From: Microcystis viridis FACHB-1342
GTDB lineage: Bacteria; Cyanobacteriota; Cyanobacteriia; Cyanobacteriales; Microcystaceae
Direction of reading: 5' to 3'
Assembly: GCF_014698335.1 (NCBI RefSeq)
Contig: NZ_JACJSV010000030.1
Location: 1 to 54,185, forward strand
Length of the DNA: 54,185 bases
In this document: positions 47,622-54,066 of the stretch, one piece after another
How positions within the stretch are numbered: position 1 is the first letter of the stretch
How the letters are laid out: the number at the start of each line of letters is the position of its first letter
Made by a program: the position numbers and the translations under genes
The notes under the pieces: generated by a model
What the model saw: only the letters and a program-made list of their open reading frames with translations
What the model was told of the DNA's origin: nothing
Database searches by the model: none

Positions 47622-48143
47622 ATGCGCTCAAGGTCATTAAAAGCGAGAAAAAGCCGCAAATATTCAAGTAATCGCTTACTGCGATTTTTGCGCTATTGGT
47701 ATATTCGCTTAATGCGATTACAAGGACATCCTAGGGAAATTGCCAGGGGTTTTGCCTTGGGAGTTTTTTCGGGATTTTTCCCGTGGATCGGCCTTCAAAT
47801 CATCATCGCTATCTTTTTAGCTACCCTATTTCGTGCCAACAAAATTGCCGCTGCTGCTGGTACTTATATCAGCAATCCCGTGACCGATCTGCCGATTTTC
47901 CTGTTTAATTATAGATTGGGAGAGTTTATTCTTGGTCAAAGCGGGCGATCGAATGTGGGTGACATTTTTCAAACTAATCAAAGCTTCACCGAAAAGTTAG
48001 CTAGTTCTGGCGGCCAATTTCTTTTGACCCTGTTTTTTGGTTGCTTACTATCAGCGACGGTATTTGCTACTATAACCTATTTTGTTAGCTATCGCCTAGT
48101 TCATCAACGGTATCACCGGCGACAAACAAGGAGAAAACGCTGA
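47622..48143 (+). CDS. DUF2062 membrane protein
   Basis: This 173-residue protein has a basic N-terminus, RLQGHPREIARGFALGVFSGFFPWIGLQ, read in parts, which is the DUF2062 signature. A membrane span follows, then AAAGTYISNPVTDLPIFLFNYRLGE, also read in parts, and a second span near 135-160. The tail is Arg-rich. Family function is unknown. It is divergent from mnmE with 64 bp between. It is the last ordinary chromosomal gene before the accessory island. Confidence 0.85.
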   Translation: MRSRSLKARKSRKYSSNRLLRFLRYWYIRLMRLQGHPREIARGFALGVFSGFFPWIGLQIIIAIFLATLFRANKIAAAAGTYISNPVTDLPIFLFNYRLGEFILGQSGRSNVGDIFQTNQSFTEKLASSGGQFLLTLFFGCLLSATVFATITYFVSYRLVHQRYHRRQTRRKR

Positions 48144-48211
48144 TAAATTGTAACCGTTCGGGGGGGACGAAATCTGGTAATCTAAGAGGCATCGATGAGA
48201 AGCACCTACGG

Positions 48212-48300
48212 TAATCCCACAATAAGTCTAAACTGTTATTTGATTGAATGAATACTATGATTGTGTTGTATTCAGCAAGTCTTCATCAATGATCAATTAT
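48212..48300. repeat. Partial diverged copy of the 104-bp repeat
   Basis: From ATAAGTCTAAACT to GATCAATTAT this matches the unit arrayed at 49190-49501, with a small deletion in the middle. It is followed directly by the shared downstream segment of the TPR-tail ORF at 48330. The gap 48144-48211 before it shows nothing. Confidence 0.8.
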
Positions 48301-48329
48301 AGTCCATCCCATAATCCCATCAATCACAG

Positions 48330-48434
48330 TTAAGACGATGGATGTGACTGTCGCATCATTTGTAAATTATTACGAATCATTTGTGTATTGAGATGCTCTT
48401 TACTTAATGTATTGACATACAATACTTTTGTCAT
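48330..48434 (-). CDS. 34-codon ORF with TPR-protein C-terminus (cassette 3 tail)
   Basis: The ATG follows the HEPN stop with no gap (TAAATG). The C-terminal half reads EHLNTQMIRNNLQMMRQSHP, then SS and stop. It lines up with the end of the TPR protein at 50392, ENHPTTVKIRENLQTLRQQQ then HPSS. It is the third copy of this tail and is the shortest recognisable remnant, with a new N-terminus. It may be translated by coupling with the TA operon or be a decayed relic. Confidence 0.5.
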   Translation of the reverse strand: MTKVLYVNTLSKEHLNTQMIRNNLQMMRQSHPSS

Positions 48435-48833
48435 TTAATCAGTAGGAAGCAGGTCTGAAATTATATTTAAAAAATCTCTCACTTTTGCAATAAAAGGAAG
48501 AACTTGTAATTCATCAAAATCTGCAAAGTCTGTATAATCTGCTTCGAGACGGTATTCAAATAATTCGTTATAAACTGCACCAAAGTCTTTTGAAATAATT
48601 TCGCTACGGATGTAGTTTTTGTTGAAGAGACTACGGACACCTGTATGTTTTGGAGATGAGAGATTATCATAAGCAAGTAAAGCCGTAACAGCATAAAAGC
48701 AACTATAGTACAGACGATTGATACAACTATTCCATCTTGCACCATCAGCAAGAGAACAAGCATCTTGATAAGCTTCCTCTGCACGATTTAAACGATACCT
48801 AATTAGTTGATCGTGAGGGGAATTTTTACTCAT
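48435..48833 (-). CDS. HEPN-domain protein of an MNT/HEPN pair
   Basis: This 132-residue helical protein has the HEPN core seen in MNT-associated proteins: RAEEAYQDACSLAD, RLYYSCFYAVTALL and SPKHTGVRSLFNKN, then YNELFEYRLEADYTDF. The canonical Rx4-6H RNase motif is not clear, unlike in the HepT at 11304. It is therefore a different HEPN subfamily, which may bind rather than cleave RNA. It overlaps the MNT gene by 4 bp (ATGA), so the pair is translationally coupled. Confidence 0.82.
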   Translation of the reverse strand: MSKNSPHDQLIRYRLNRAEEAYQDACSLADGARWNSCINRLYYSCFYAVTALLAYDNLSSPKHTGVRSLFNKNYIRSEIISKDFGAVYNELFEYRLEADYTDFADFDELQVLPFIAKVRDFLNIISDLLPTD

Positions 48834-49144
48834 AGCATAATAGCTTCTTTGTTAACTGATTGCCAGAAAGGAGTAGTTTGTAATAAGGGATGTTCCCATT
48901 GATTTTTGCTGCGAACAATGGTACAAATAACTTCTTCTGTTTCCCATTCGATTTCATAAATTTGACGACGGATTTGAGATGTGCGAGTAGGGTTAGTGAT
49001 CCCATCAACTAATACTAATATATCCCAATCAGAGTCTGGTTGAGCATCGTTTCGCGCCCGTGAACCATAAAGAAATATTTGCGCTTGTGGTTCGATCGCT
49101 TGTACTGCTTGTTTAATTTTATTGAGTAATAGTTGTTTGTCCAT
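48830..49144 (-). CDS. MNT-family nucleotidyltransferase
   Basis: This 104-residue minimal nucleotidyltransferase has YGSRARND at 26-33 and D39-W-D41 in SDWDILVLVDG, the catalytic GS...DxD set. It pairs with the HEPN gene immediately downstream. MNT partners of HEPN proteins act as antitoxins by nucleotide transfer (family knowledge). It is first in a TA-like operon whose upstream side abuts the 104-bp repeat array. Confidence 0.85.
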   Translation of the reverse strand: MDKQLLLNKIKQAVQAIEPQAQIFLYGSRARNDAQPDSDWDILVLVDGITNPTRTSQIRRQIYEIEWETEEVICTIVRSKNQWEHPLLQTTPFWQSVNKEAIML

Positions 49145-49189
49145 GATTTTTTATTACCTTTTTGTACTGCAAAACAATATTAACAATAT

Positions 49190-49501
49190 AGTCCATCCCA
49201 TAATCCCATAATAAGTCTAAACTATGATTGAAATGATTGAATGAATACTATGATTGTGTTGTATTCAGCAAGTCTTCATCAATGATCAATTATAGTCCAT
49301 CCCATAATCCCATAATAAGTCTAAACTATGATTGAAATGATTGAATGAATACTATGATTGTGTTGTATTCAGCAAGTCTTCATCAATGATCAATTATAGT
49401 CCATCCCATAATCCCATAATAAGTCCAAACTATGATTGAAATGATTGAATGAATACTATGATTGTGTTGTATTCAGCAAGTCTTCATCAATGATCAATTA
49501 T
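49190..49501. repeat. Three tandem copies of a 104-bp repeat
   Basis: The units begin at 49190, 49294 and 49398 with AGTCCATCCCATAATCCCAT and are nearly identical, with one T/C difference seen. Each contains GAATAC...GTATTC as an inverted repeat and ends in GATCAATTAT. No ORF is present. The array lies between the MNT/HEPN and VapBC-like cassettes. A partial copy is at 48212. Confidence 0.92.
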
Positions 49502-49530
49502 AGTCCATCCCATAATCCCATAAATCACAG

Positions 49531-49626
49531 TTAAGACGATGGATATTGCTGTTGTCGCATCATTTGTAAACTTTTCCGAATTTGAACAATAGTAGAGTGA
49601 TTTTTCCTAATAGTCGTTGACTCCAT
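49531..49626 (-). CDS. 31-codon ORF with TPR-protein C-terminus (cassette 2 tail)
   Basis: The ORF begins MESTTIRKNHSTIVQIRKSL and ends QMMRQQQYPSS. It aligns with the last 27 residues of the TPR protein at 50392 (ENHPTTVKIRENLQ, RQQQHPSS). The ATG is 19 bp after the VapC-like stop on the same strand. The same downstream segment (TAACTG, then ATGGGATTATGGGATGGACT) follows. It may be a functional micro-ORF or a relic; the conserved tail suggests recent duplication. Confidence 0.5.
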   Translation of the reverse strand: MESTTIRKNHSTIVQIRKSLQMMRQQQYPSS

Positions 49627-49645
49627 TTTATAGTAGTTCTATTTT

Positions 49646-50053
49646 TTAAAAAAGAATAATAAAACCTTCTTGGGTAAAGTGCTTGTCATGGGTAAGCACT
49701 TCAAAAATATCCATTTGTTGCATAATTATCATTGATATGCAGTCTGTAATACTATAACCTTTGTCTGACCGTTGTTTATATAATTCAAAACCTAATTGAC
49801 GTAATTCTGGTGTATAGGAAATAACTTGTATTGTTTTTTCCCGTAGCATTTGCGTACACATTAAGAGTGCTTTCTGTCTCATAATAGTTCCTCTACATGA
49901 AGCATAGTTCAGTATCTCATCAATAATGCCATCCGTTGTTATTAGTTGATCATTGATACAATTATGAGCATAGTTGAGTGCGATTTGATGCCAGTCATCT
50001 TTGGGGTTGAGTAAAGCGATCCAATAAAAGGTGTCGGCAAAAATTTGCTTCAT
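49646..50053 (-). CDS. vapC: PIN-domain (VapC-like) ribonuclease toxin
   Basis: This 135-residue PIN protein has the acidic metal-binding set Asp7 (FADTFYWIAL), Glu46 (IIDEILNY), Asp104 (SITDCISM) and Asp123 (LTHDKHF), in the standard spacing. VapC-type toxins cleave tRNA or rRNA. It starts 2 bp after the antitoxin stop, giving a tight operon. It is intact and of usual length. A TPR-tail micro-ORF follows. Confidence 0.88.
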   Translation of the reverse strand: MKQIFADTFYWIALLNPKDDWHQIALNYAHNCINDQLITTDGIIDEILNYASCRGTIMRQKALLMCTQMLREKTIQVISYTPELRQLGFELYKQRSDKGYSITDCISMIIMQQMDIFEVLTHDKHFTQEGFIILF

Positions 50054-50055
50054 GG

Positions 50056-50298
50056 TTAATGTTTAGGAGTACCGTAGATGTAATGATCATGTTGCTCTGC
50101 ACTATCGGTTGGTAAGGTATCTAAAACTTCTTGAGGAATATCAGCAGTGAGTTCTTCGATAAATCGCGCGAAAGGTTTAGATTGTTCTTGCGATCGATGA
50201 TGTTTGATTTTGGCTAACAATAAAAAGTCAAAAACTTCTTCTATTACCTCATCGGATACTGTTTCAATTTCATGAATTAGTTGTTCTTTAATGGTCAT
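50056..50298 (-). CDS. VapB-like antitoxin
   Basis: This 80-residue protein begins MTIKEQLIHEIETVSDEVIE and continues VFDFLLLAKIKHH, a DUF2281-like helical start common in cyanobacterial antitoxins of PIN toxins. The C-terminal part is disordered and acidic (TDSAEQHDHYIYGTP) and would contact the toxin. It is first in the operon with the PIN gene. Family assignment rests on position plus the N-terminal pattern. Confidence 0.75.
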   Translation of the reverse strand: MTIKEQLIHEIETVSDEVIEEVFDFLLLAKIKHHRSQEQSKPFARFIEELTADIPQEVLDTLPTDSAEQHDHYIYGTPKH

Positions 50299-50391
50299 AA
50301 TTTTACCTTTGTAAGTTCTTCAACTATAGCCTATATCAGTTATCAGTGATTAATTCAATTATAGTCCATCCCATAATCCCATCAATCACAG

Positions 50392-50703
50392 TTAAGACGA
50401 TGGATGTTGCTGTTGTCGCAGCGTTTGTAAGTTTTCCCGAATCTTAACAGTAGTAGGATGATTCTCCCCTAAAGCTTGCTCGGCTATGTCTAAAGCTTGC
50501 TGGTGGAGTGGTTCTGCTTCTTCATACCTTCCTTGAGAGTGGTAGAGTTTTGCTAAATTATTAAGATTTTCAGTGATATTGGGATAGTTATCGCCTTCAA
50601 AAATTTCTGGACAGTATTTTTTTTGATTTGCCAGAAATTCCTGTGAGGTAACTTCAGTAAAATATTGGTGGATAATATTGCGAAATTCTTTAGGCTCTAG
50701 CAT
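50392..50703 (-). CDS. Short TPR protein (cassette 1 tail)
   Basis: This 103-residue protein has an N-terminal region MLEPKEFRNIIHQYFTEV that recalls no family to me. One kinesin-light-chain-type TPR follows (TENLNNLAKLYHSQGRYEEA, EPLHQQALDIAEQALG), then the tail ENHPTTVKIRENLQTLRQQQ. The TPR and tail are almost the same as the end of the NB-ARC protein at 51249. It starts 16 bp after the RelE/ParE-like toxin. It is either a small TPR adaptor or a truncated derivative. Confidence 0.7.
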   Translation of the reverse strand: MLEPKEFRNIIHQYFTEVTSQEFLANQKKYCPEIFEGDNYPNITENLNNLAKLYHSQGRYEEAEPLHQQALDIAEQALGENHPTTVKIRENLQTLRQQQHPSS

Positions 50704-50719
50704 GGTTAATTTTCTCCTT

Positions 50720-50977
50720 CTATTTAATTAACTCTTCATACTCATCATGAGAACCAATCCAAAACCAGTAATAATCTTCACCTTTTTTCAATGCTAAAGC
50801 TCTATAATTCTCAGTTATTCGGACTGACCAGACATTTTTCCCTACTTTCTTGAAATGTAATGATCGATGGAAAACATTACTAATCCAGAGACGATAGGCT
50901 TTTTTGGCCTGTTGCTTAATGTAGGGAGATAAGTTGGCATAACATTGCCAAAAATCAGGAGTTGTTAAGGATTTCAT
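50720..50977 (-). CDS. RelE/ParE-like toxin (copy C)
   Basis: This 85-residue toxin belongs to the same family as those at 3835 and 4599: FWQCYANLSPYIKQQAKKAY, SLHFKKVGKNVWSVRI, NYRALALKKGEDYYWFWIGS and HDEYEELIK. It overlaps its antitoxin gene by 23 bp, unlike copies A and B, which barely touch. It is a remote paralogue about 46 kb away in the window. Confidence 0.85.
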   Translation of the reverse strand: MKSLTTPDFWQCYANLSPYIKQQAKKAYRLWISNVFHRSLHFKKVGKNVWSVRITENYRALALKKGEDYYWFWIGSHDEYEELIK

Positions 50978-51176
50978 CTAAAGGCTTAACTTGATTGTTA
51001 CTGATATCATTGTTGACTTTTTGTAATAGTCGATCGAGTTTCCCTGATTCGAGATCGTTTTTTATCTGTTTGTCCCAACTATCATCAAGATAGTCTTGTA
51101 ACCAAGCTGATAATTGATGGATTTCTTCGTCAGGCAACTGGAGAATCGCGGATTCAATATCTTTGAGTGTAGTCAT
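50955..51176 (-). CDS. Antitoxin of RelE/ParE-like TA pair (copy C)
   Basis: This 73-residue protein shares IESAILQLPDEEIHQLSAWL and SWDKQIKNDLESGKLDRLLQ with the antitoxins at 3638 and 4398. It has a slightly longer C-terminus that overlaps the toxin start. It is likely to bind its toxin and the operon promoter, although a DNA-binding fold is not obvious. It lies downstream of the NB-ARC gene, on the same strand, after a hairpin. Confidence 0.8.
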   Translation of the reverse strand: MTTLKDIESAILQLPDEEIHQLSAWLQDYLDDSWDKQIKNDLESGKLDRLLQKVNNDISNNQVKPLDEILNNS

Positions 51177-51228: not shown

Positions 51229-51249
51229 GGATGGGTTAATAACCCATCC
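51229..51249. terminator. Hairpin at the end of the NB-ARC gene
   Basis: GGATGGGTT-AAT-AACCCATCC is a perfect 9-bp stem with a 3-base loop, touching the NB-ARC stop codon. It separates that transcript from the TA pair downstream. It also resembles dispersed cyanobacterial palindromes. Confidence 0.55.
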
Positions 51250-53591
51250 TACGGAAGCGACTCTAAGTTTTCCCGAATCCTAACAGTAGTAGGATGATTC
51301 TCCCCTAAAGCTTGCTCGGCAATTGCTAAAGCTTGTAAATAGAGAGGTTCCGCTTCTAAGTATCTTCCTTGGTATTTGTACAGCTGTGCTAAATTGTTAA
51401 GGGAAGTTGCCAAATCGGGATGATTGTCTCTTAAGAGTCGTTTTCTCAAATCTAATGCTTCTAGAAGGAGAGGTTCCGCTTCTGTGTACCTGCCTTGGAA
51501 ATAGTACAATTCTGCTAAATTGTTGAGGGAAGTTGCCACAAGGGGATGATTGTCTCTGAAGAGTCGTTTATACAAATCTAATGCTTCTAGATAGAGAGGT
51601 TCCGCTTCTGTGTACCTGCCTTGGGATTTGTACAGCTGTGCTAAATTGTTGAGGGAAGTTGCCACAAGGGGATGATTGTCTCTGAAGAGTCGTTTATACA
51701 AATCTAATGCTTCTAGATAGAGAGGTTCCGCTTCTGTGTACCTGCCTTGGGATTCGTACAATGATGCTAAATTGTTGAGGGATTGTGCCACAAGGGGATC
51801 ATTGTCTCCTAAGAGTCGTTTTCTCAAATCTAATGCTTCTAGATAGAGAGGTTCTGCTTCTGTGTACCTGCCTTGGGATTTGTACAATCCTGCTAAATTG
51901 TTGAGGGAAGTTGCCACATGGGGATCATTGTCTCCTAAGAGTCGTTTTCTCAAATCTAATGCTTGTAAAAAGAGGGCTTCCGCTTCTGTGTACCTGCCTT
52001 GGGAACGGTACAATGCTGCTAAATTGTTGAGGGAAGTTGCCACATGGGGATCATTGTCTCCTAAGAGTCGTTTTCTCAAATCTAATGCTTTTAGATGGAG
52101 AGGTTCCGCTTCTTTGTACCTGCCTTGGGAATTGTAAAATGCTGCTAAATTGTTGAGGGAAGTTGCCACATGGGGATGATTGTCTCCTAAGCGAGATTGT
52201 ACCGCTTCGAGACAATTATCAAAATATCTTTCTGCCGAGTTATACTGTCCTTGCCCCTCATAAAACCATGCTACCCCAACAAATGCCCACATTAAATTAT
52301 CATCATCAGGATTAGGAATATCATCCAGCATCTCTTGACTCAGTAACTCCAGATGAGGAATAGCCAGACGCACTCTGTCAATATCTGCAATAACGGGATT
52401 CTGGGGAATAGTCTTTGCTACGGCAATTCCACTACTCGCAATTCCTCCTTGCAGAACATGAATAAAATCATCCCCTTCCTGCTTACTTTGATAACGAAAA
52501 TACTCTCTCAACAAAGCATGAATAACAATATTTTTACCATTCTCAATCTCAATCAGAGACAAATTATCTAACTGCTTGCGTGCATCCTTGACTGCTTTCT
52601 TCTCCCATCCCAAACTGTTTATCGTCGGTTCCACCAAATCCTGCCAAGGAATAGCAGCAGCAGCAAACCTTCCCAACAGCATCGCCAACTGAGTTGCTAA
52701 ACGTTGCAAACGTTGCCAACTCAAATTAAACGCAGCTATCACACCCCTCTCAGCCGTAATTCCCCTCACCATTTCATCGGAAAGCGACTCATCCTCAAGA
52801 CTCAACTGCTGTAAATAATCTTCCAGAGACAACATCCGGTCATCTTTTAAATATTTAGCAACCAACTCTAATGCTAAAGGTAAATAACCCAGATAACGAC
52901 AAATCTCCTTGGCTGTTTCTATCTCATTTTCACTGCGCGAAGTGAGTTCAGCATCGACAATTTTTGTTAACAGTTCAAGAGACTCCGCTTCTGACAACAC
53001 CCCTAACGATAACTCCCAAAACCTCAGACTCAGATTCCTTTGTCGCGTCGTTAGCATCACCTTAAAACGAGAGGAAATTGGGAGCAATTCTTGAGGAATA
53101 TCTTCTAAGCTTTTAACATCATCAATAACAAGTAAAATTTGTCCCTCTTGAGGATGCCAGTTTTGCCAACACCACTTCACCTGTTCCTCAACACTTCCCA
53201 ATTTCTGTAACTTCTCCGGCATTGCTAAATAAGGCGCAGCTTTTAATAAAATTTGAGTCGCTAAATCCCCTTGATTGAGAGAAAACCAATAACAAGCCAC
53301 ATATCGCTGTTGAAACTCCCTTGATAACGCATACTGAACCGCTAACTCAGTCTTACCCACACCTCCCATACCCCGCACCGCACAAACCGAAACCTTACCC
53401 TCATTTTGTAACGCCTCATGCAAGTTTTTTAAGTCTTGCTGTCTCCCGACAAAATTGGGTGATCCTTGTCGTACATCACTGGGAATCGTTGTACTTACTT
53501 TTGGTAAATTAATCGTTTGGTTAATCTCAATTTGAGCATAATCACCAAATGTTGAATCTTTAATCCCTGTCTGAGTATTTTTGTTATCCAT
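51249..53591 (-). CDS. NB-ARC STAND ATPase with kinesin-light-chain-type TPR repeats
   Basis: This 780-residue protein begins with a short beta-like leader (STFGDYAQIEINQTINLP), then FVGR at 47-50 and an NB-ARC ATPase: Walker A GMGGVGKT at 74-81, Walker B ILLVIDDV near 160, and GLPL-like GYLPLALELV near 250. After a winged-helix-like region come about nine 42-residue TPRs (about 440-770) of the form ATSLNNLAxLYxSQGRYTEA. The DNA repeats are nearly identical at 126-bp spacing. The ATG at 53591 is used; an in-frame TTG at 53624 overlaps the upstream gene. STAND/TPR proteins sense ligands and trigger effectors. Confidence 0.88.
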   Translation of the reverse strand: MDNKNTQTGIKDSTFGDYAQIEINQTINLPKVSTTIPSDVRQGSPNFVGRQQDLKNLHEALQNEGKVSVCAVRGMGGVGKTELAVQYALSREFQQRYVACYWFSLNQGDLATQILLKAAPYLAMPEKLQKLGSVEEQVKWCWQNWHPQEGQILLVIDDVKSLEDIPQELLPISSRFKVMLTTRQRNLSLRFWELSLGVLSEAESLELLTKIVDAELTSRSENEIETAKEICRYLGYLPLALELVAKYLKDDRMLSLEDYLQQLSLEDESLSDEMVRGITAERGVIAAFNLSWQRLQRLATQLAMLLGRFAAAAIPWQDLVEPTINSLGWEKKAVKDARKQLDNLSLIEIENGKNIVIHALLREYFRYQSKQEGDDFIHVLQGGIASSGIAVAKTIPQNPVIADIDRVRLAIPHLELLSQEMLDDIPNPDDDNLMWAFVGVAWFYEGQGQYNSAERYFDNCLEAVQSRLGDNHPHVATSLNNLAAFYNSQGRYKEAEPLHLKALDLRKRLLGDNDPHVATSLNNLAALYRSQGRYTEAEALFLQALDLRKRLLGDNDPHVATSLNNLAGLYKSQGRYTEAEPLYLEALDLRKRLLGDNDPLVAQSLNNLASLYESQGRYTEAEPLYLEALDLYKRLFRDNHPLVATSLNNLAQLYKSQGRYTEAEPLYLEALDLYKRLFRDNHPLVATSLNNLAELYYFQGRYTEAEPLLLEALDLRKRLLRDNHPDLATSLNNLAQLYKYQGRYLEAEPLYLQALAIAEQALGENHPTTVRIRENLESLP

Positions 53592-53604: not shown

Positions 53605-54066
53605 TTAGTTAGTTTCTTGCTCAATTATAAAAATAGCATCTCCATCCGCTTTGATCTGCTGCGCACCAATTTGTTCAACAAGATCGCCCTTAGCTTTTTG
53701 CTTGATTTCTGCTTCTATGCGACCTGCCGTAACATCTCTTAAACCAACTTGGGTGATTTCCCCTGCTTGAATTGCTTGTCCTAAAATCTGTAACTCCTCA
53801 GCAAAAAGGGAGTCTTCATCTAAAATCACATCTAAATTTTTAGTCAAAGTTGCGATCGCTGTACTATCACCAATTTCAACCTTAGCCAATGCTTCATCAA
53901 CTTTAGGAGATTTTCCTGTTAAGCGAGTTTTGATCTTTTCCCATAAAATGGGAATCTTAGCCAAAGCCTCCGCCGTAAAGCGTTTCGCTAAATCCCCCGT
54001 CCCAGACTTCACAAACTCTTGTACTGCTAAGGTGATAAGTAAACCTGCTGTTAATGGCTCAGTCAT
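53605..54066 (-). CDS. Small partner protein upstream of the NB-ARC ATPase
   Basis: This 153-residue protein is of unknown function. It has a hydrophobic start (LTAGLLITLAVQEFV), an Ala/Lys-rich helical region, then AEELQILGQAIQAGEITQVG and a beta-like end (IEAEIKQKAKGDLVEQIG) similar in style to the leader of the NB-ARC protein. The ATG at 54066 has GAGG upstream; an upstream in-frame start 16 codons earlier is weaker. Its stop is 13 bp before the NB-ARC ATG, so the two form an operon and it could be the effector or adaptor (inference). Confidence 0.65.
   Translation of the reverse strand: MTEPLTAGLLITLAVQEFVKSGTGDLAKRFTAEALAKIPILWEKIKTRLTGKSPKVDEALAKVEIGDSTAIATLTKNLDVILDEDSLFAEELQILGQAIQAGEITQVGLRDVTAGRIEAEIKQKAKGDLVEQIGAQQIKADGDAIFIIEQETN

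Follow-up and report, generated by a model that had tools for sequence, protein, structure and literature searches.

Microcystis is known for carrying many toxin-antitoxin (TA) pairs. Unrelated TA pairs that stand in tandem and in one orientation, each followed by a related sequence, occur in integron cassette arrays, and islands targeting the 3' end of a gene, which they rebuild on insertion, leave this end repeated at each junction. Here, we analyse a locus of Microcystis viridis FACHB-1342 in which three different TA pairs follow one another on the minus strand, each with a version of the end of a tetratricopeptide repeat (TPR) gene and a copy of a short repeat, R, behind it. The window, that is the whole stretch analysed, is contig C63 (54,185 bases) of this genome (G000; 4.70 Mb in 138 contigs), and was compared within a set of 12 genomes of the genus (G000 to G011), a small set with several fragmented assemblies. 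The locus resembles an integron array in its tandem, co-oriented pairs with a related sequence each, and some relatives carry an integron integrase. Unlike such arrays, R has no attC core pair, the junctions vary, G000 has no integrase and the ends of resident genes lie inside the repeated unit. From islands inserting at a gene's 3' end the locus differs in that the end copies are decayed and unequal and no fixed core site was seen.

Within the genus, the ParE/ParD-like TA pair linked to MaOC1 in M. aeruginosa PCC 7806 lies between two 152-bp direct repeats that contain inverted repeats, and pair and repeats also occur in strain FD4 without the effector gene (accessible part of PMC7935541). 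The present locus shares with it a Microcystis TA pair, repeats with inverted repeats and a conflict-type effector gene alongside. However, the same part of PMC7935541 describes a single pair with identical repeats outside the genes, and neither a chain nor gene-end fragments on the repeat. Miniature inverted-repeat elements of Microcystis (accessible part of PMC11448079) are, like R, short and non-coding with inverted ends; unlike them, full-length R is low-copy and found at two hotspots of TA and STAND genes, and its transposition enters here only as a rival explanation. The layout is described neither in the accessible part of that report nor in that of PMC7159879, which contains TA and hotspot terms and mentions neither Microcystis nor fragments. 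In searches of a literature collection with few subscription papers, none of the titles and abstract openings listed describes repeated effector-gene ends between TA pairs.

The layout is real and recurrent, and repeat-mediated stacking of TA alleles explains it best. In particular, we propose a recombination hotspot beside a gene that we take from its sequence to be mnmE, at which homologies in R and in gene ends have stacked alternative TA alleles, and we assign this reading a probability of about 0.6. It offers a concrete and testable route by which unrelated TA pairs could gather: they would recombine at a short repeat that adjoins the terminus of an effector gene already in place, and related genomes display alternative alleles.

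Read along the minus strand, the locus comprises an NB-ARC/TPR gene, a ParE-like pair, a 103-codon TPR open reading frame (ORF), a PIN-like pair, a 31-codon ORF, a 104-bp tandem array, an MNT/HEPN pair and a 34-codon ORF, beyond which lie the flank genes DUF2062 and mnmE (Table 1). A previous sequence-only reading of this DNA had placed the ORFs in this way, which was confirmed, and assigned three different TA types, of which the PIN pair is VapC-like by weak matches. The ParE/RelE-like unit is a predicted type II pair of a ParE_like toxin and an overlapping small ORF upstream, for which neither Pfam nor NCBIfam yielded a family match. The PIN protein had no Pfam match and resembles VapC weakly (NCBIfam E-value 0.0023, under the model cut-off; VapC20 in the PDB, E-value 2.1e-4). 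In the third unit, predicted as a TA pair from Pfam matches, a nucleotidyltransferase gene precedes a HEPN gene, as expected of MNT/HEPN; the MNT gene matches the MntA equivalog model, yet under its cut-off. The tails stand directly after the toxin-side genes, as had been noticed, with gaps of 16, 19 and 0 bp. Likewise, their shared sequence with the repeat exceeds chance, as in a whole-genome search the 114-nt first copy matched the other two at 89% and 88% (E-values 4.8e-35 and 4.1e-25).

All three small ORFs had been aligned with the C-terminus of a TPR protein. This alignment holds, but the three are not alike: one is an intact gene and two appear to be relics. By sequence comparison, the 103-codon ORF represents a genuine gene. 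Its longer counterpart, which has 145 codons and two TPRs, stands behind the same ParE pair in G002, G003, G008 and G010 and keeps this length in all four relatives carrying it; the ORF of the window is a shortened form. Its best matches are from Microcystis, and the frame (TPR103/145) is open in five of five genomes with a pN/pS of 0.40 (sum over 10 non-independent pairs). The N-terminus of the 145-codon form was considered as a domain used elsewhere and rejected, as its first 49 residues occur once each in five of the 12 genomes, always at this locus. The 31- and 34-codon ORFs (tail31 and tail34) align with the final TPR of genes of this type before they enter R. Without the R end, their coding parts outscored all 300 dinucleotide shuffles in comparisons with every one of five TPR-gene ends. 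Tail34 reached its best local score of the five, 29, against the mnmE-site TPR end of G006, tied with G010:C61, compared with 19 against TPR103; tail31 scored 41 against the NB-ARC/TPR end of G006:C235, 39 against TPR103/145 and 29 against the mnmE-site end of G006. The different best partners indicate that the tails stem from different TPR ends and not from one recent copy.

The segment of about 40 bp shared behind the tails is one end of R, a repeat of about 120 nt. Its ends, GTCTTAACTGTGATT and AATCATAGTTTGGAC, carry 15-nt inverted arms that pair in the predicted fold, so that terminal inverted repeats of the type known from miniature inverted-repeat transposable elements (MITEs) are present. 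The R end supplies all three tails with their TAA stop. The common PSS-stop ending that had been reported is present in all three, but the repeat contributes both the stop and the final PSS codons. ATGGGATTATGGGATGGACT has six exact copies in the G000 genome, all at this locus and four of them inside the tandem array (49187-49523), which the sequence-only reading does not mention. R-like matches were found in 11 of the 12 genomes. Those of at least 95 nt are confined to two places, the mnmE hotspot and a second hotspot with dnaJ-like, frhB-like and DUF1611 genes as neighbours, where NB-ARC/TPR genes and TA pairs also occur (names partly by eye); partial R-type ends lie at other loci. The joints of R with the antitoxin-side gene of the PIN pair, with MNT and with DUF433 lie at different bases, which means that there is no constant crossover point. 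G002 has 8 tandem units of the 104-bp R body (L136:5406-6226), an amplification that could serve as a strain marker.

The mnmE/DUF2062 site is a variable hotspot in the genus. Its DUF2062 side is present in all 12 genomes, and the content of the island next to it varies. G002 carries the ParE pair, TPR145 and 8 R units up to DUF2062, without the PIN and MNT/HEPN pairs. In G008 and G010 the ParE pair and TPR145 are followed by a DUF433/HNH stretch where the window has the PIN pair, and then by R, MNT, HEPN, tail34 and R; G003 is similar with a truncated HEPN gene and no tail. G004 shows R, MNT, HEPN, tail34 and R as far as its contig end, and G006 a TPR gene with R and no TA genes. No R was present at the mnmE site within the stretches examined of G001, G005, G007, G009 and G011 (573 nt beyond DUF2062 for G007), and in G011 DUF2062 adjoins the gene that bounds the far side of the island in G002 and G010. 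The joining of TA pairs, as modules, to copies of a TPR-gene tail, which the sequence-only reading had put forward, thus stands in outline, the relatives showing other combinations of modules with R and a TPR end.

Identities differ strongly between island and flank. Compared with G004, the window shows 97.5% identity in HEPN, 98.7% in MNT, 69.7% in DUF2062 and 95.9% in mnmE; compared with G002, 98.8% in the ParE gene, 100% in its antitoxin gene, 69.2% in DUF2062 and 97.5% in mnmE. TA genes at 97-100% next to DUF2062 at about 69% and mnmE at 96-98% require recombination between island and flank, and these genomes thus carry recombinant combinations of alleles. The two DUF2062 alleles, about 69% identical beside near-identical mnmE genes (window 47622-48143; L136, L139, L144), represent an allelic replacement adjacent to the hotspot. 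The DUF433 and HNH stretch that replaces the PIN cassette lies at L137:9170-10403 and L140:4428-5661, and a decayed toxin gene may lie in the roughly 500 bp that separate DUF433 from the following ORF.

A TA unit has also moved together with its tail. The second hotspot of G009 holds the PIN gene (97% identity), its antitoxin gene (96%), tail31 (96%) and R (93%), whereas the orthologous locus in the window's own genome carries an 885-codon NB-ARC/TPR gene instead. This, together with the tails in the other relatives, agrees with the expectation that such tails occur elsewhere. Beyond R in G009 follows a junction of R with another element, E, as it is found, read by eye, beside DUF2062 in G000, G002, G004, G006 and G010. 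The shared junction argues that the PIN-tail31-R piece of G009 derives from an mnmE-type allele. Element E itself has the inverted ends GTAACCGTTCAGGGGGG and CCCCCCTGAACGGTTAC (window 48152-48211; L149:7884-8130) and at least 1-7 matches per genome, counts that are lower bounds because the search missed the G009 copy, which was found in a separate comparison. In five genomes R interrupts it at one and the same position.

Codon comparisons distinguish the tails from the genes they follow. Between window and G009, tail31 shows 0 synonymous and 4 non-synonymous differences, compared with 8 and 3 in the PIN gene and 8 and 1 in its antitoxin gene (16 and 4 together). The ATG of tail34 is present in G000 and G008 and missing in G004 and G010, and in a fifth genome, G003, tail34 and the end of HEPN are gone. 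These observations speak against a constant 3' module used by the TA operons, which had been offered as one interpretation. Outside R, tail34 diverges by 0-10% between genomes, compared with 5-9% at the synonymous sites of MNT and HEPN, two genes under strong constraint (46 synonymous and 6 non-synonymous differences in MNT, 34 and 7 in HEPN, summed over genome pairs). As judged by these counts, constraint falls on the TA genes and on the 103/145-codon TPR gene, and the few data on the 31- and 34-codon ORFs point to decayed last-TPR sequences that arose as by-products. A functional third gene in all three operons was accordingly rejected, as tails 31 and 34 give it no support in the codon comparison. 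The sequence-only reading had contrasted a module with duplication debris that is restricted to this place and free of codon constraint; the tails do occur elsewhere, yet two of the three lack such constraint. In codon terms, tails 31 and 34 are debris; even so, they flag a recombination arrangement that recurs. This calls for caution, as a short ORF shared by the 3' sides of TA toxins can be the remains of a gene end instead of a third component. A pN/pS of 1.05 for the ParE gene was discarded as an artefact of an in-frame stop in G002, a separate count giving 0-3 differences in 258 nt. This stop lies at codon 50 of the ParE-like toxin gene of G002 (L136:6710-6967), the antitoxin gene of which is identical to that of the window.

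The stacking may have proceeded in three steps. The site would first have held an NB-ARC/TPR effector gene with its 3' end abutting R, as the TPR gene of G006 does today. In different lineages, a TA pair would then have replaced most of this gene and spared the last few dozen bases beside R. Finally, crossing-over between copies of R, or of R and tail, on different alleles or hotspots would have joined the units head to tail, a step that the mosaic islands document in part. Each TA pair would then carry its own version of the TPR end together with R, and the R units in tandem, 3.2 of them in the window and 8 in G002, would reflect the same kind of event. In favour of this reading we count the allele combinations, the mosaic identities, the moved PIN-tail31-R unit, the descent of the tails from different TPR ends, the codon constraint on the TA genes but not on tails 31 and 34, and the glgP-linked hotspot described below. 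Several points weigh against it. A PIN allele from before the stacking was found at the mnmE site in none of the genomes and is deduced from the second locus of G009, and crossing-over from R to R is likewise deduced and not directly seen. As the junctions between R and the cassettes differ, the first joining of a TA pair to a tail needs another event. Moreover, the codon tests rest on few substitutions, the four changes in tail31 are clustered beside R, the predicted fold of R has an ordinary energy (z -0.96), and the integron integrase near the hotspot in G010 and G005 would fit a site-specific past.

The latter point leads to the first alternative, in which the TA units are, or were, integron cassettes or inserts for whose movement a tyrosine recombinase would use R or the end of the gene as attachment site. 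The co-oriented pairs, each ending in a repeat of about 120 nt with inverted ends, do look like cassettes. G010 encodes an integron integrase (TIGR02249, 471 bits, cut-off 265) on the hotspot contig (C18:1049-2155; L226), at a distance of about 7 kb past the far-flank gene, and G005 one (445 bits; L228:5657-6532) 1.4 kb from the far-flank gene, on a contig other than that of DUF2062. Broken or partial copies are found in G001, as a related gene that lies about 17 kb away from mnmE, and in G011, as an N-terminal fragment about 9 kb away from DUF2062. The recombinase beside mnmE in G007, on the side facing away from the island, is an unrelated tyrosine recombinase. Phage_integrase matches occur in 10 of the 12 genomes, but neither in G000 nor in G008, and the five integrase regions analysed contain no match to R. 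Judged by its motifs, R is not attC-like: no RYYYAAC...GTTRRRY pair spans either of the two copies tested, even with one mismatch per box, and the island has 6 attC-type box pairs per strand, fewer than the shuffle mean of 9. Varying junctions and the gene-end fragments, which cassettes leave unexplained, also argue against this alternative. Because of the integrase genes near the hotspot we keep an integron past as a rival, albeit an improbable one.

A second alternative, which we judge similarly improbable, is that R transposed in a one-ended or MITE-like manner and took the adjoining gene end, tail or head, to TA genes already in place. The inverted ends of R, the R-type ends at further loci and the presence of the same type of end at the 3' ends of TPR genes and at the 5' end of a CHAT gene would fit this. 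However, full-length R is found at two hotspots only, and neither a target duplication nor an empty site was established for R.

The CHAT gene lies at a third hotspot, linked to a gene that is presumably glgP. There, R-type ends adjoin heads of a 1348-codon TPR-CHAT gene (Pfam CHAT, 3.9e-51), and the heads alternate with HicBA, HigBA and ParE/RelE-like pairs (Pfam matches for HicBA and HigBA in G001 and for HicA, HicB and ParE_toxin in G004; other genomes by eye). At least two head copies of varying length occur in all six regions examined (G000, G001, G003, G004, G008 and G010), and one head in the stretches covered of G002 and G009. Here the R-type end, on the opposite strand, contains the ATG of the head, the mirror image of the stop it gives to the tails. 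A TA census compared 17 places with R-type ends away from the mnmE site, most of them weak and partial matches, with 20 evenly chosen control places in four complete genomes. TA-type families made up 11 of the 25 Pfam families displayed (31 in total) in the R set and 2 of the 25 displayed (37 in total) in the controls, where undisplayed families may hold further TA genes, the 17 places reduce to about eight or nine loci, and two hand-added ORFs of L195 (42 instead of 40 in the R set) brought in DUF5615. As TA-type we counted, on our own assumption, DUF2281, ParE_toxin, HicB_lk_antitox, UPF0150, DUF1902, HicA_toxin, DUF433, PIN, DUF5615, AF2212-like and PhdYeFM in the R set, and ParE_like and HTH_37 in the controls. 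Among the places whose ORF list shows no TA genes are L186 and L202, and two guesses at PIN proteins (L195:3530-3781 and L177:1556-1810) were dropped, as Pfam did not confirm them. In a broader version, an R terminus joined to the start or the end of STAND/CHAT effector genes would act as a general recombination joint that collects TA pairs, lets them be exchanged among at least three hotspots, stacks them and at times fuses an effector head with an antitoxin (182-codon head-HicB in G001 and G004); this version seems to us rather unlikely. The in-frame fusions of TPR-CHAT head and HicB lie at L152:4772-5320 (G001) and L189:6744-7292 (G004), and G008 has a 140-codon variant with a GTG start (L156:6193-6615).

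That the tails are functional, a constant 3' peptide or untranslated-region element common to the TA operons, is very unlikely. The position of tail and R close behind each toxin-side gene, the three frames open in the window and the constraint on TPR103/145 would agree with it, but the purely non-synonymous changes of tail31, the start lost in two of four copies of tail34 and the divergence of tail34 at the level of synonymous sites do not. Plain local debris from a recent tandem duplication, which copied the window's tail twice within the locus much as the R body is tandemly repeated here, is highly improbable, as tail34 is nearer to another TPR end than to TPR103 and both PIN-tail31-R and HEPN-tail34-R exist in genomes without the chain.

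Table 1 Features of the TA locus in the window, with the evidence for each assignment.
Feature	Position	Strand	Basis
NB-ARC/TPR gene, 780 codons from ATG	51249..53591	-	Pfam NB-ARC 1.6e-19, TPR_12 1.8e-142; alternative TTG start at 53624 possible
Antitoxin-side gene of ParE pair	50955..51176	-	ORF; 99-100% identity in 4 relatives
ParE-like toxin gene	50720..50977	-	Pfam ParE_like 6.4e-11
103-codon TPR gene, its end being the first tail	50392..50703	-	Shortened form of the relatives' 145-codon gene
Partial R (first 48 nt), upstream of PIN pair	50355..50402	-	98% identity to R
Antitoxin-side gene of PIN pair	50056..50298	-	ORF; 8 synonymous, 1 non-synonymous difference to G009
PIN/VapC-like toxin gene	49646..50053	-	Weak VapC matches
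Tail31, putative last-TPR relic running into R	49531..49626	-	Alignment to TPR ends, codon comparison
R, about 120 nt, 15-nt inverted ends	49422..49541	-	Repeat search, predicted fold
104-bp tandem array of R body, 3.2 copies	49187..49523	-	Tandem-repeat detection
MNT nucleotidyltransferase gene	48830..49144	-	Pfam NTP_transf_2 3.2e-11
HEPN gene	48435..48833	-	Pfam HEPN 2e-16
Tail34, putative last-TPR relic running into R	48330..48434	-	Alignment to TPR ends, codon comparison
R copy adjoining DUF2062 flank	48225..48340	-	93% identity to R
Element E remnant, cut by R	48152..48211	+	Sequence comparison
DUF2062 flank gene, fixed hotspot border	47622..48143	+	Pfam 1.9e-45; region present in 12/12 genomes

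Three further proposals were discarded. A promoter in R was suggested by two 10-of-12 matches in R copies, but the region has 9 promoter-like sites compared with a shuffle mean of 15.5. The start pattern of R had no exact match in viral_contigs, which gives no indication of viral carriage, and for a plasmid origin three plasmid records matched, covering just 2-9% of the query. At the other end of the locus, the frame of the NB-ARC/TPR gene also stops inside a repeat, here a different one (palindrome GGATGGGTTA/TAACCCATCC, window 51229-51251) just before the ParE antitoxin gene, and the original C-terminus of this gene may also have been cut off.

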